Shown: positions 43,989 to 52,557 of the stretch, piece after piece | Layout of the letters: every line of letters starts with the position of its first letter | How positions within the stretch are numbered: the first letter of the stretch is position 1 | From: Paucibacter sp. TC2R-5 | GTDB taxonomy: Bacteria > Pseudomonadota > Gammaproteobacteria > Burkholderiales > Burkholderiaceae_C | Assembly (NCBI RefSeq): GCF_025717605.1 | Contig: NZ_JAJIRQ010000001.1 | Location: 186,001 to 250,000, forward strand | Direction of reading: 5' to 3' | Length of the DNA: 64,000 bases | Notes under the pieces: model-generated | The model's database searches: none | What the model was told of the DNA's origin: nothing | The model's input: the letters and a program-made list of their open reading frames with translations, nothing else | Position numbers and translations under genes: made by a program

Positions 43989-44096
43989 GTTAGGGGGTAG
44001 GCAGATGAAGCCCTGCCAGCCCTTGATCAAAGCTTGCGCTTGGCCCGTGACGCCGGCATGACAGGCGGGGCGCGCCAAAGCGGCTATGGTGTCGGC

Positions 44097-48647: not shown

Positions 48648-49856
48648 TCAGAGCCGCTTGCCTTCGATCAACAACTGCACCGTCAAAGGCAGCGCCTGCT
48701 CGTACTGCTGATCAAGTGCAATCGGCAGGCCTTGTTGCAGCACTGGGACGTCCGTAAACGAAGCACCCAGCTGAGCTTGCAAGACGCTCAGCGGCAGCAG
48801 CTTGGGCTCGCCGTCCTGGTTCGGCAGTACCAGACCTATCCAGCGTCCTGCTTGATCGAACACCGGCCCGCCGCGTGGGGCGAGCGGGAGTTCCACACCC
48901 AAGGCTTGCTGGTTGTTGGCCGCGCTGATGCGGCCTAAAAAGCCCCGGTGCATGGCCGGCCAAGCGGCTTGCGCCGAGGGTGTGGCCAGATAGGCAAATG
49001 CGGTGGCCGGGCTGCCGGCGAAGGCATCGCGCGGCGCGCGTGCCAACTTCGACTGAGCGATGGGCAGCGGTGTGTCCAAGCTCAGCAGAGCCAGGCCCAA
49101 ACTGTCAAAACTTTGCAGCAAATGGGCCGTGCTGGTGTGTCCCAAGCCATTGCGCAGCCAGAGCTGTGTCGCGGCCTGGCTGGGTGCCAACGGCACCAGG
49201 GCTAGGCGCCCGCCGTCAAGCAAGAGCCCGCTGCCCAGCGCTAGCGCATGGGAGGGAACGGGCGCACCGACAGCCAAGGGGCCGGGACGAATGCTGGCGG
49301 CAACGGGGTCGGACTCGGCCTGAGCCATGGGCTCGGCGCGCGGCAGTTGTTGCTGCGTCGCCAGCAGTGCCGGCTCGTTCGGCAGGCGCTTCAAGCCGGC
49401 TTCCAACATGCGCATGGCCTCGGCCCGCTGCTCGCCCAAGGCCAGCATCCAGGCATAGAGCGCCAAAGCCTCGGGCTCATGGATATGCGCGCCGGCGGTG
49501 TGCGAGGCAAACATCAGCGCCGAGCGATATTCGCCGGCCTGCATCTGCGCCTGCAAGAGCAGCAACTCGGTGTCGGCCGCATGGCTGATCATGGCGGCTG
49601 CGTCGAGTCGCCGCTGTGCGGTGTCGCTGTCGCCTGCGGCCAGTGCCGTGCGGGCGGCCTGCAGCAGCGCCTGCCGCTCGGGCTCGCTTGGCGATTGGGC
49701 ATGCCCCTGCTGACCCTGCGAATGTTGATGCGGATGTTGATGGGCTTGGGTGCCGCCGCAAACAAAGGTGGCCAGGCTAAAAAACAGCCCGGCCACCTTT
49801 GGTTTCCAGCTCGACACCGCCCGCTTGCCATCAAGCGGTGGGCGGTATTTTTTCAT
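48648..49856 (-). CDS. Exported TPR-like / trypsin-fold protein lacking the catalytic triad
   Basis: A 402-residue exported protein. A signal peptide ends near residue 38 (GGTQA), followed by a His/Gln-rich stretch at 39-52, then TPR-like helices to about 165 and a trypsin-like beta fold from about 195. The fold is recognised from GSGLLLDGG (208-216), GLALLSLD (254-261) and GGPVFDQAGRWIGLV (329-343). By alignment with trypsin-like proteases, the catalytic His is Leu223, Asp is Gly254 and Ser is Arg328, so it is predicted to be inactive. It may bind peptides or serve as a scaffold. Its ATG is one base after the metallophosphatase stop (TGAGATG), so translation is probably coupled. Confidence 0.7.
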   Translation of the reverse strand: MKKYRPPLDGKRAVSSWKPKVAGLFFSLATFVCGGTQAHQHPHQHSQGQQGHAQSPSEPERQALLQAARTALAAGDSDTAQRRLDAAAMISHAADTELLLLQAQMQAGEYRSALMFASHTAGAHIHEPEALALYAWMLALGEQRAEAMRMLEAGLKRLPNEPALLATQQQLPRAEPMAQAESDPVAASIRPGPLAVGAPVPSHALALGSGLLLDGGRLALVPLAPSQAATQLWLRNGLGHTSTAHLLQSFDSLGLALLSLDTPLPIAQSKLARAPRDAFAGSPATAFAYLATPSAQAAWPAMHRGFLGRISAANNQQALGVELPLAPRGGPVFDQAGRWIGLVLPNQDGEPKLLPLSVLQAQLGASFTDVPVLQQGLPIALDQQYEQALPLTVQLLIEGKRL

Positions 49857-49857
49857 C

Positions 49858-51807
49858 TCAAGGCGTCTGTGTGATGCGTGGCTTGTTCAGCACCGCGCTG
49901 CTGGGGTTGTAGGCGTTTGCGGCATTCTTGTAGCCGGACAGATAGGCGATCAAGGCATCGATGTCTTGTGCGCCGCCCTGGACATTGCTGCCGCCCAGCA
50001 GGACCGTGAAGCCGTCGCCGCCGGTGGCGGTGAAGTTGTTGACTGTCACGCGGTAGGTCTTGGCCGGGTTTTGCACCACGCCATTGATGACGATGTTGTC
50101 AGCAGCACCCGTCACAACGGGCGGGTAGACGGTCACATCGGTCGGCGTCAGCGTCACGTTCTGGATCTTGGCGCAAGCCGGTGCTGCGGCGCTCCAGTTG
50201 TACTTCAGGCCATTGCTGGCTTGCATCACGCGGTCTGCGGTCTGGCCCTTGCAACCTTTGAATTGCTGCTCCAGCACGTCCTTGAGTTGCTGCGCTGTCA
50301 GCGTCATCGTCACCAGGCTATTGCCGAACGGCTGGACGGTGAACGCGTCGGCGTAAGTCAGCGCATAAGGGTAGCTGGCAGCGGCGGGCTTGACGAAGCC
50401 TGGGCTGCGCACGCCGCCGGCATTCATGAAGGCCATCACCGCGCCGCCCAATGCGGCCGGCTGGGTCGCTTGCAACTGCGCGTCGGCGATCAGATCACCG
50501 GCTTCCATTTCGCCGGCGCTGTTGGCGCCATTGCTCAGGCCGGTGGTGATGGTGCCCACCACTTGACCGGCGATCGGTGCGACCGCGTTCTTGTAGGCCT
50601 GTACCACGTTCTTGACTTCCGGGTTGTTGGCGATGGCGGTGTTGATGGCGGCGTCGCTGCGGTCCACCAAACGGTTGGTGGCGCTGACGGCCGTCACGTC
50701 GCGGCTGACGGGGTCGATGCTCAGATCGACTTCGGTCAAGGCGCGGCCGAAGGCGCTGGAACTGGTGACCGGGATCAGTCGGCCGGTCTTGTTAGGCAGG
50801 CCGGTGGGGCGCGGCGTGCTGACCGCGTTGGCGGCGTTGCTGCCGGTCACGTCGACGGTGTTCTTCGAGCAGTTGTAGGCGGCGTGGGTGTGGCCGCTGA
50901 TGACCAGATCGACCGCATTGTCAAAGCGAGCGACTACCTTGGCGATATCGCTGGCGCTGCCGTCCGGGTTCTTGAGATCGTTCAGGCAACCGTTGATGTC
51001 GCTGGCGTTGGTCAGGCCGCTGCCGGCCGCCGCGTTCTGGAAGCCACCTTGGTGAATCAACACCACAACGGATTCGATGCCCTGGGCGCGCAGCTTGGGG
51101 ATCAAGGCATTGACCGAGTCGGCCTCGTCCTTGAAGGCCAGGCCGGCCACGCCGGTGGGGGTGACGATGCCCGGTGTGCCCTTGAGCGTCATGCCGATGA
51201 AGGCAACTTTGACGCCGCCAAAGCTTTTCACGCCATAGGCCGGCAGCAGCGTGCGGCCGGTGGCGGTTTCGACCACATTGGCCGACAGCCATTTGAACTT
51301 GGCGCCGTCAAAAGTGCCCGGTGCCGAGGAGCCGAAGCCCTTGCAGCTATTGGCTTCCTGGACGCCGCCGGCGTCCAGTTTGCAGCCGCCGTTTTGCAGT
51401 CGGCGCAGCTCGTCCTTGCCCTTGTCGAATTCGTGGTTGCCCACCGACGAGAAATCAACGCCGATTTTGTTCAGCGTCTCCACCGCAGGCTCGTCAAAGA
51501 ACAGCGCCGAGATCAAGGGCGAGGCGCCGATGAAGTCGCCCGCTCCGACAACGACGGTGTTGGGGTTGCTGGCCTTCATTTTGGCCACATAGGCAGCCAG
51601 ATACTCGGCGCCGCCGACGGCGGGGCGCTGGGCGCTAGGGATGGTGGTGTTCTTGCCAAAGGTGCCGGGAGTTTCCAGCGTGCCGTGGTAATCATTGAAG
51701 CCGATGATCTTGACACTGATGGGGCTAGGGCCCGCGGTGACGGCTTGCGCCGCGTTCAGGCCAAAAGCGGCCATCAAGGCCAGCAGCAGAGGACGTGTTT
51801 TAAACAT
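49858..51807 (-). CDS. Exported 5'-nucleotidase / UshA-type metallophosphatase
   Basis: A 649-residue periplasmic or secreted phosphatase. After a signal peptide (cleavage near AQA, residue 22) comes a two-metal phosphoesterase domain: GFNDYHG with Asp39 and His41, GAGDFIGAS, SVGNHEFDKG and SGHTHAAY, followed by a 5'-nucleotidase C-terminal domain ending NFTATGGDGFTVLL. It would release phosphate from nucleotides outside the cytoplasm. There are four or more Cys residues, suggesting disulfides. It lies 29 bases after a PEP-CTERM gene and one base before a pseudoprotease gene, so the three form a unit. It does not itself have a PEP-CTERM tail. Confidence 0.9.
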   Translation of the reverse strand: MFKTRPLLLALMAAFGLNAAQAVTAGPSPISVKIIGFNDYHGTLETPGTFGKNTTIPSAQRPAVGGAEYLAAYVAKMKASNPNTVVVGAGDFIGASPLISALFFDEPAVETLNKIGVDFSSVGNHEFDKGKDELRRLQNGGCKLDAGGVQEANSCKGFGSSAPGTFDGAKFKWLSANVVETATGRTLLPAYGVKSFGGVKVAFIGMTLKGTPGIVTPTGVAGLAFKDEADSVNALIPKLRAQGIESVVVLIHQGGFQNAAAGSGLTNASDINGCLNDLKNPDGSASDIAKVVARFDNAVDLVISGHTHAAYNCSKNTVDVTGSNAANAVSTPRPTGLPNKTGRLIPVTSSSAFGRALTEVDLSIDPVSRDVTAVSATNRLVDRSDAAINTAIANNPEVKNVVQAYKNAVAPIAGQVVGTITTGLSNGANSAGEMEAGDLIADAQLQATQPAALGGAVMAFMNAGGVRSPGFVKPAAASYPYALTYADAFTVQPFGNSLVTMTLTAQQLKDVLEQQFKGCKGQTADRVMQASNGLKYNWSAAAPACAKIQNVTLTPTDVTVYPPVVTGAADNIVINGVVQNPAKTYRVTVNNFTATGGDGFTVLLGGSNVQGGAQDIDALIAYLSGYKNAANAYNPSSAVLNKPRITQTP

Positions 51808-51836
51808 GGTGATGGGTCTTTTGAATGCAGGGTTGC

Positions 51837-52445
51837 TTACTTGCTGGCTTTGCGGCGCAGGGCCAGCGACAGCAACGACAGGCCGGCCAGCAGGCTGGCC
51901 AGGGTCGTCGGCTCGGGCACGGCTGAAACGGTCAGCTGCAGGCCGCCGGTGGTCACATTCATCGGGCTGCCGGCGAGCTGGACCGACCTGGATAGATAGC
52001 CGCTGATGTCGTAGCTGCCGGCTTGCAGCGTGTAGACGCCGCGGCTGAAGCTCGGGTTGGCCAAGGCGATGTTGAAGTCAGCGACGGAGCTGCCTTCCAG
52101 CAAGGGGTCGCCGTCAACGCCGACGCTGGTTTCGCCGAGTGCGGCGCCCTTGTTCGTGACAATGAAGCGATCGCCGGAAATGCCGCTGTCCAGCACGGTC
52201 AAACTGCCGACAAAGCCGGCATCGATCGTGAACGTGAAGTGAGCCGTGCTGGCATCGTCAAATCCAAGCAGCCAGTCGAGGCTGTTCGGGCTGTTGACCG
52301 GAGTCAGGTCGGCATTGACCAGGAATTCGGCCCAGCTGCCGTCGGCTGCCAAGGTGGCTGCGTGGGCGGAGCTCAGGCCGGCAGCCAGCGTGAGTGCGCT
52401 CAAAGCGCCGACCGCAACGGCGCGGGAGAAGAATTTGCTTGTCAT
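51837..52445 (-). CDS. PEP-CTERM sorting domain protein
   Basis: A 202-residue exported protein with a signal peptide (cleavage near AHA, residue 29) and a sorting tail VPEPTTLASLLAGLSLLSLALRRK that an exosortase would remove. The mature part is beta-rich, high in Gly and Ser, and has no domain I recognise. It heads the operon with the metallophosphatase and pseudoprotease genes. It is a different protein from the other PEP-CTERM product at 7822. Confidence 0.87.
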   Translation of the reverse strand: MTSKFFSRAVAVGALSALTLAAGLSSAHAATLAADGSWAEFLVNADLTPVNSPNSLDWLLGFDDASTAHFTFTIDAGFVGSLTVLDSGISGDRFIVTNKGAALGETSVGVDGDPLLEGSSVADFNIALANPSFSRGVYTLQAGSYDISGYLSRSVQLAGSPMNVTTGGLQLTVSAVPEPTTLASLLAGLSLLSLALRRKASK

Positions 52446-52535
52446 GATCTAGTCCAGGATGGATGAGGGCCACCGTCAAAAAACAATGCTGACGGAACGG
52501 CGCGATCCTGCCTGTGCGGGGTGACTAGGGTGTGA

Positions 52536-52557
52536 ACCTGCTTGGGCCCAAGCAGGT
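52536..52557. repeat. 22-bp perfect palindrome
   Basis: ACCTGCTTGGG/CCCAAGCAGGT is fully self-complementary with no loop. It lies 8 bases after the helicase stop and 91 bases before the PEP-CTERM ATG. There is no T-run on either side, so it is not a standard terminator; it may be a protein-binding site or a weak transcript end. Confidence 0.6.

Follow-up and report, generated by a model that had tools for sequence, protein, structure and literature searches.

Extracellular nucleotides and DNA are a reserve of organic phosphorus, both in water and in biofilms. To our knowledge, how bacteria keep the enzymes for organic phosphorus at the cell surface is poorly known. UshA-type 5'-nucleotidases are commonly Pho genes, UshA itself being Pho-controlled, and PhoB promoters consist of two direct repeats of 11 bases (PMC4415409). 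A described non-catalytic protein of the trypsin-like kind is MamO, a metal-binding pseudoprotease (PMC4794232). Here we compare with these systems three adjoining genes in 64,000 nucleotides of Paucibacter sp. TC2R-5 (contig NZ_JAJIRQ010000001.1, positions 186,001 to 250,000; this whole stretch is called the window). They encode a PEP-CTERM protein, a 5'-nucleotidase and a trypsin-like pseudoprotease with tetratricopeptide repeats (TPR). The trio probably belongs to the Pho regulon and scavenges phosphate outside the cytoplasm, with the pseudoprotease as partner of the nucleotidase and with a PEP-CTERM surface protein. The elements are:

52505..52536, minus strand: PhoB-type promoter, predicted; TTCAC-N6-GTCAC (52536..52521), a 10-base spacer and the -10 element CAGGAT (52510..52505)
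52445..51837, minus strand: PEP-CTERM protein gene, 202 amino acids
51807..49858, minus strand: metallophosphatase / 5'-nucleotidase gene, 649 amino acids
49856..48648, minus strand: trypsin-like TPR-pseudoprotease gene, 402 amino acids

The intergenic gaps measure 29 bases (PEP-CTERM/nucleotidase) and 1 base (nucleotidase/pseudoprotease), the last junction reading TGAGATG. Coordinates and gaps agree exactly with a preliminary description of this DNA. It had also considered all three proteins to be exported; signal-peptide-like N-termini are indeed present on each, as judged by eye. A promoter/terminator scan returned no sigma-70-like promoter and no minus-strand terminator-like site inside either gap.

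Conservation and promoter of the trio

The window's relatives belong to Paucibacter/Roseateles, from which 18 genomes were sampled as the same genus. Close homologues of all three genes are adjacent and in the same order in nine of them. The arrangement thus exceeds chance, and the neighbourhood comparison which the preliminary description had called for demonstrates that the order is not unique to this strain. The other nine, two of them less than 80% complete, carry none of the trio and only a nucleotidase of about 40% identity that is also present in the trio-bearing genomes. The trio occupies two places. At the first (G000, G001, G004 and G005) a UvrD-like helicase gene, identified in the window copy by Pfam, lies ahead of it, with a few extra frames between in G005; on the far side a glutathione-transferase-like gene (by eye) is found in three of the four genomes. 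In the fourth, G001, the trio is succeeded up to the contig end by a subtilase gene, a further PEP-CTERM gene and part of a second pseudoprotease copy (L058 15267-18797). In the remaining five the trio lies between slmA and a conserved ATPase-like gene (both named by eye). These two genes adjoin each other directly in all four first-place genomes, as they do in seven genomes of the genus that lack the trio. G002 has a partial slmA match, and in G014 the sequence is interrupted at this place. The same place holds the trio in three further genera (L114-L116, L126) and the nucleotidase alone in another (L205, L210). Because there are two places and the neighbours are joined where the trio is absent, the three genes were lost or moved together. 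They form a conserved unit.

When the 200 bases preceding the nine genus trios were aligned, a pair of TCA triplets emerged at a period of 11 bases, with CANNNT after them; this element was kept in 9/9. In the window 59 bases separate it from the first start codon, that of the PEP-CTERM gene. The phylogenetic footprint recovered an element that a search with the E. coli-style Pho box had missed (CTGTCAT-N4-CTGTCAT with up to 3 mismatches; 4 in the window vs 3.4 expected, none at the operon). The full pattern is KTCAY-N6-KTCAY-N10-NANNNT. It was derived from the nine genus trios; other genera and the pstS and PPK2 sites were independent tests. The box, scored as [GT]TCA[CT]-N6-[GT]TCA[CT] within 300 bases upstream of 49 operons, was present in 26, compared with 175 among 20000 windows drawn at random from these loci (0.9%). 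By first gene, it preceded 19/27 operons headed by PEP-CTERM and 7/22 headed by the nucleotidase. PhoB promoters also have a set -10 spacing. Here NANNNT stood at offset 10 after 26 of 27 boxes; the other offsets from 4 to 14 yielded 0 or 1.

The element was then considered in the window's own genome. The exact pattern occurs twice in the window (0.04 expected in shuffles) and at 17 sites in the genome (3 for a reversed-pattern control). Among the genes that come after them are pstS, PPK2, those of a metallophosphoesterase, of a GNAT acyltransferase (which we take to be OlsB-like) and of a fasciclin protein, and the trio. Upstream of pstS all nine genomes have GTCAC-N6-GTCAY with TANNAT at offset 10, as in the trio; a divergent box there is likewise followed, at this spacing, by TAAGCT in 9/9. 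Neither box is present at the second pstS-like copies that two genomes contain. Two direct repeats with an 11-base period, a -10 element at a fixed distance and the same element at pstS and PPK2 of the same genome are what a Pho regulon is expected to present. Because the box recurs, its -10 offset is fixed and pstS, PPK2 and the metallophosphoesterase gene share the layout, the operon is most likely a member of the Pho regulon. We consider Pho control very likely; PhoB binding and induction are predicted from these patterns. This also backs the phosphate-scavenging role which the preliminary description had proposed as one of two options.

The box goes with the pseudoprotease: it is found at 24/35 operons with and 1/13 without it (Fisher p 0.0002), by genus at 13/20 and 1/7 (p 0.03); like the other p values here, these are optimistic because the sampled genomes are related. 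Several points weigh against Pho control, namely that 23 of the 49 operons have no strict box in the 300 bases (two of these have a near match, one more under the loosest rule only), that about 3 chance sites are expected among the 17 own-genome matches and that some of these matches precede genes with no obvious phosphate role (phasin, STAS, ShlB-type transporter, PCuAC copper-chaperone-like), while those at L256, L260, L264-L266 and L268 lie within frames or before unnamed genes. Outside the operons, 1.02 Mb of loci contained 29 distinct boxes, seven with a -10 element. The 23 box-less operons would fit a coincidental element, with the operon expressed in another way and a nucleotidase serving nucleoside salvage or signalling by removal of ATP or AMP and not phosphate supply. 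We regard this as very unlikely in view of the excess over random windows, the fixed -10 offset and the identical layout at pstS (9/9 genomes) and PPK2.

Several other Pho-type sites were noticed. The second pattern match in the window (44031-44062, minus strand) precedes a phasin gene (PF09361) by about 180 bases; it possibly ties storage granules to phosphate hunger. The fasciclin-domain gene is divergent from pstS and has its own Pho-type promoter (L269/L270, G000:C45:22441-22567). At G000:C41:31600-32300 (L261, L262) a PCuAC copper-chaperone-like gene and a gene for a secreted protein each follow their own site; a DFHNHTTCSDGS stretch of the secreted protein is PHP-like by eye, with no match in Pfam.

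The nucleotidase and its pseudoprotease neighbour

The second protein of the trio is predicted to be a secreted UshA/CD73-like two-metal 5'-nucleotidase. Both Pfam domains exceed their cut-offs (Metallophos 29.4 bits, cut-off 21.5; 5_nucleotid_C 108.3 bits, cut-off 23.6); the NCBIfam matches, UshA and related, all remain under theirs. The best solved relative is 2z1a (E 1e-37). D39, H41, D91, N124, H125, H252, H306, H308, N462 and R467, which we take to be metal ligands and substrate-domain residues, are intact, and these ten positions are identical in 33/33 clade-T and 17/17 other sequences. Clade T comprises 49 leaves of a 72-sequence tree (Shimodaira-Hasegawa-like support 0.987), i.e. 35 pseudoprotease-linked nucleotidases, 13 without pseudoprotease and one undecided. 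Some nucleotidases end in CPxGAxxNP, a C-terminal tail that by eye does not track with the presence of a PEP-CTERM gene. Elsewhere (L068 7741-10562, G028) the gene of a nucleotidase that belongs to another clade shares a few bases with a PEP-CTERM gene of 306 codons; the likeness to the trio's protein is weak (E 5e-6), and this is perhaps an independent pairing.

The third protein reaches the cut-off of no Pfam or NCBIfam model; Trypsin_2 scored 21.7 bits (cut-off 27.6), and TPR matches were sub-threshold. As Trypsin_2 is below its cut-off, the trypsin-like fold was assigned by predicted structure. AlphaFold2 was supplied with nine sequences, and the best of five models had a predicted local distance difference test score (pLDDT) of 78. 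The layout of the product is:

49856..48648, minus strand: signal-peptide-like N-terminus; His-rich stretch, residues ~39-52; TPR part, 58-174; trypsin/HtrA-like fold, 204-398, catalytic triad absent

In the best model residues 58-174 form seven helices and residues 204-398 a beta barrel. The helical part contains the tandem 34-residue helix pairs characteristic of TPR and superimposes on HOP TPR1 with Z 15.7 (root-mean-square deviation (rmsd) 2.2, 116 residues), where helical models can score Z of about 13-14 through common arrangement alone. The modelled barrel resembles DegS (Z 13.5-13.8 over ~156 residues in VIA-align; HtrA-type Foldseek E about 1e-6) and MamO (Z 13.8, 159 residues, rmsd 2.6); MucD is also among the structural neighbours in Foldseek. 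A profile alignment with HtrA2, itself a weak match (E 0.07), places A224, G254 and R328 at the His, Asp and Ser positions, in accordance with the triad-less trypsin fold of the preliminary description, which had missed the TPR domain of what is a two-domain protein. In 31 homologues of 17 genera the triad columns hold His in 0/31, Asp in 0/31 and Ser in 3/30, so the triad of HtrA/S1 proteases is absent from the family. A reservation stands against the structural assignment: the models drew on nine sequences, and only one of the five was good, with pLDDT 78 vs 54-58.

Mean pairwise identity is 0.47 in the TPR part and 0.41 in the barrel, with TPR repeat 2 highest at 0.59, and H92, E97, Q106, G108, H119, G122, H124 and Y134 are invariant in 31/31 homologues. 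The lost triad together with the conserved TPR part and its invariant residues points to a binding rather than a catalytic role. Four of the residues, H92, E97, H119 and H124, should lie at the loop end of TPR repeat 2, going by the TPR register. A metal-handling partner which supplies or guards the nucleotidase metal might be imagined, the more so as MamO, a top structural neighbour, binds metal (PMC4794232), and a His-rich stretch follows the signal peptide in several species. The stretch is missing from several homologues, and the invariant residues may be structural; we consider such a partner improbable, and a metal role of the TPR histidines is equally doubtful. The stretch in the window (49701-49742, minus strand) is just past the likely signal-peptide cleavage site. 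Among the homologues, L126 has nine His in its first 62 aligned residues and L059/L060 have none.

How tightly the two genes are linked was examined in 399 genomes of the family and 399 genomes of the order. The pseudoprotease profile matched 31 of the family genomes, 27 strongly (E 3e-36 or better), and in 27/27 of the latter a clade-T nucleotidase was located directly upstream on the same strand. Concerning the weak matches, G136 has a PEP-CTERM and a nucleotidase gene with the pseudoprotease convergent; the G094 pair is undecidable, nucleotidase and pseudoprotease fragment each being at a contig end; G220 and G251 were rejected as unrelated. In the order sample there were two further strong cases, G654 with both genes on one strand and G640 with convergent genes separated by 0.9 kb. 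Its 27 weak matches L145-L171 (E 1e-9 to 1e-3) had no nucleotidase or PEP-CTERM gene in the stored flanks and were set aside as ordinary HtrA/TPR proteins, a verdict which covers these loci; nine further weak matches are outside it.

Conversely, clade-T nucleotidases were collected with a profile threshold of 843 bits, the next match having 602. Their 42 places in the family sample include 28 with an adjacent pseudoprotease, 13 without and one undecided, and in the tree the 49-leaf clade takes in every one of the 35 nucleotidases linked to a pseudoprotease. The 13 speak against a partner needed by every such enzyme. They are scattered through the clade, and therefore the pseudoprotease was lost, or gained, more than once. 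These thirteen (L202-L214) include second copies in genomes which carry the pair as well (G114, G236, G262). A comparison of the nucleotidase and pseudoprotease distance matrices (r 0.60 over 26 shared loci) was left unused because common descent alone gives such a value. A PEP-CTERM homologue is upstream of 20/28 linked and 2/13 unlinked nucleotidases (Fisher p 0.002). From the linkage and this frequency it follows that the core is the pair of nucleotidase and pseudoprotease, with the PEP-CTERM gene as a frequent third member. The preliminary description was thus correct in treating the trio as a conserved set, with the amendment that the PEP-CTERM gene is optional.

Operons often carry functionally parallel genes, and the scattered absences at 13/42 places would be compatible with Pho-induced proteins which are secreted independently from a shared promoter, the pseudoprotease having a role of its own, e.g. 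in envelope stress or in binding other exported proteins. This appears unlikely, since the pseudoprotease stands beside one single nucleotidase clade in 27/27 strong family cases and the convergent pairs of two more genomes are unexplained by a merely shared promoter. We favour, with some reserve, that the pseudoprotease is a physical partner of the nucleotidase.

The PEP-CTERM protein and its possible anchoring role

The first protein has a signal-peptide-like N-terminus, a strand-rich domain in a weak model (pLDDT 72) and, at its end, VPEP, a transmembrane helix and an RR tail. PF07589 of Pfam (26.2 bits, cut-off 20.7) and TIGR02595 of NCBIfam (22.8 bits) are both over cut-off, and V176, P177 and E178 are invariant across nine orthologues. 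By fold only weak matches to PliG and the PPC domain were obtained, from which no function was drawn. The window's genome has one exosortase. An exosortase is present in 26/27 genomes with the PEP-CTERM gene vs 13/19 without (p 0.015). A lipobox-like signal is carried by 16/22 nucleotidases without a PEP-CTERM neighbour vs 9/27 with one (p 0.01); these counts use a stricter rule, presumably that of PROSITE PS51257, and a looser first rule gave 18/22 and 8/27. Both trends are modest and their p values ignore kinship. Both are in line with surface anchoring in trans by the PEP-CTERM protein, a role which we propose tentatively, the odds being somewhat against it.

Proposed function and comparison with known systems

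We regard the following sequence of events as probable. When phosphate is short, PhoB would bind the tandem TCA box at 52521-52536, and the transcript would begin about 50-60 bases ahead of the PEP-CTERM gene. The exported two-metal 5'-nucleotidase would free phosphate from nucleotides, with the exported TPR-pseudoprotease as its non-catalytic partner, i.e. adaptor, stabiliser or regulator. Exosortase would put the PEP-CTERM protein at the surface. The Pst system may then import the freed phosphate; the promoter of pstS has the same element. That the operon serves extracytoplasmic phosphate release, with nucleotides as the presumed substrate, is likely. Going further, a TPR-pseudotrypsin adaptor family derived from an HtrA-like protease might dock a Pho-induced nucleotidase clade on an exosortase-anchored PEP-CTERM protein as a surface complex; where the PEP-CTERM gene is absent, the nucleotidase would tend to its own lipid anchor, as in the lipobox trend. 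We offer this as a speculation, more doubtful than the anchor role itself.

Pho-induced secreted 5'-nucleotidases are already known; new, as far as the open-licence literature in PubMed Central shows, is their standing association with TPR-pseudotrypsin and PEP-CTERM proteins, and the pseudoprotease represents an undescribed partner family. Searches of that literature returned nothing joining PEP-CTERM with nucleotidase, with or without exosortase, no operon of nucleotidase, trypsin-like and tetratricopeptide proteins under phosphate starvation, and no bacterial HtrA-type pseudoprotease with tetratricopeptide repeats. If correct, the proposal provides a functional context, phosphate hunger, for a family of PEP-CTERM proteins and assigns a testable role, outside biomineralisation, to a family of bacterial pseudoproteases. 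The degenerate Pho box plus -10 pattern would be usable for Pho regulon prediction in this group of Burkholderiales.

How does the trio relate to its described counterparts? With the surface proteins of the PEP-CTERM/exosortase system the first protein shares the signal-peptide-like N-terminus, a motif over cut-off and an exosortase in the genome; its body constitutes a family of its own, the best NCBIfam subfamily (FxDxF) scoring 36 vs a cut-off of 50 bits. The predicted trypsin-like fold of the pseudoprotease is common to the HtrA/Deg proteases MucD, DegQ and DegS, from which it differs by the absence of the triad in 31 homologues, the N-terminal TPR and the missed Trypsin_2 cut-off. To MamO of the magnetotactic bacteria, a trypsin-like pseudoprotease with a non-catalytic role, the modelled likeness is in fold only. 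MamO functions in magnetite formation and has a surface di-histidine, and the abstract on it mentions no TPR (PMC4794232). Finally, UshA and the bacterial 5'-nucleotidases (PF00149 plus PF02872; 2z1a, 1ush, CD73) share both domains and the metal and substrate residues with the trio enzyme. The latter differs in that it belongs to a separate clade with its own insertions (e.g. 330-341 and 565-574) and an extra conserved Cys 519, and is usually encoded alongside the pseudoprotease.

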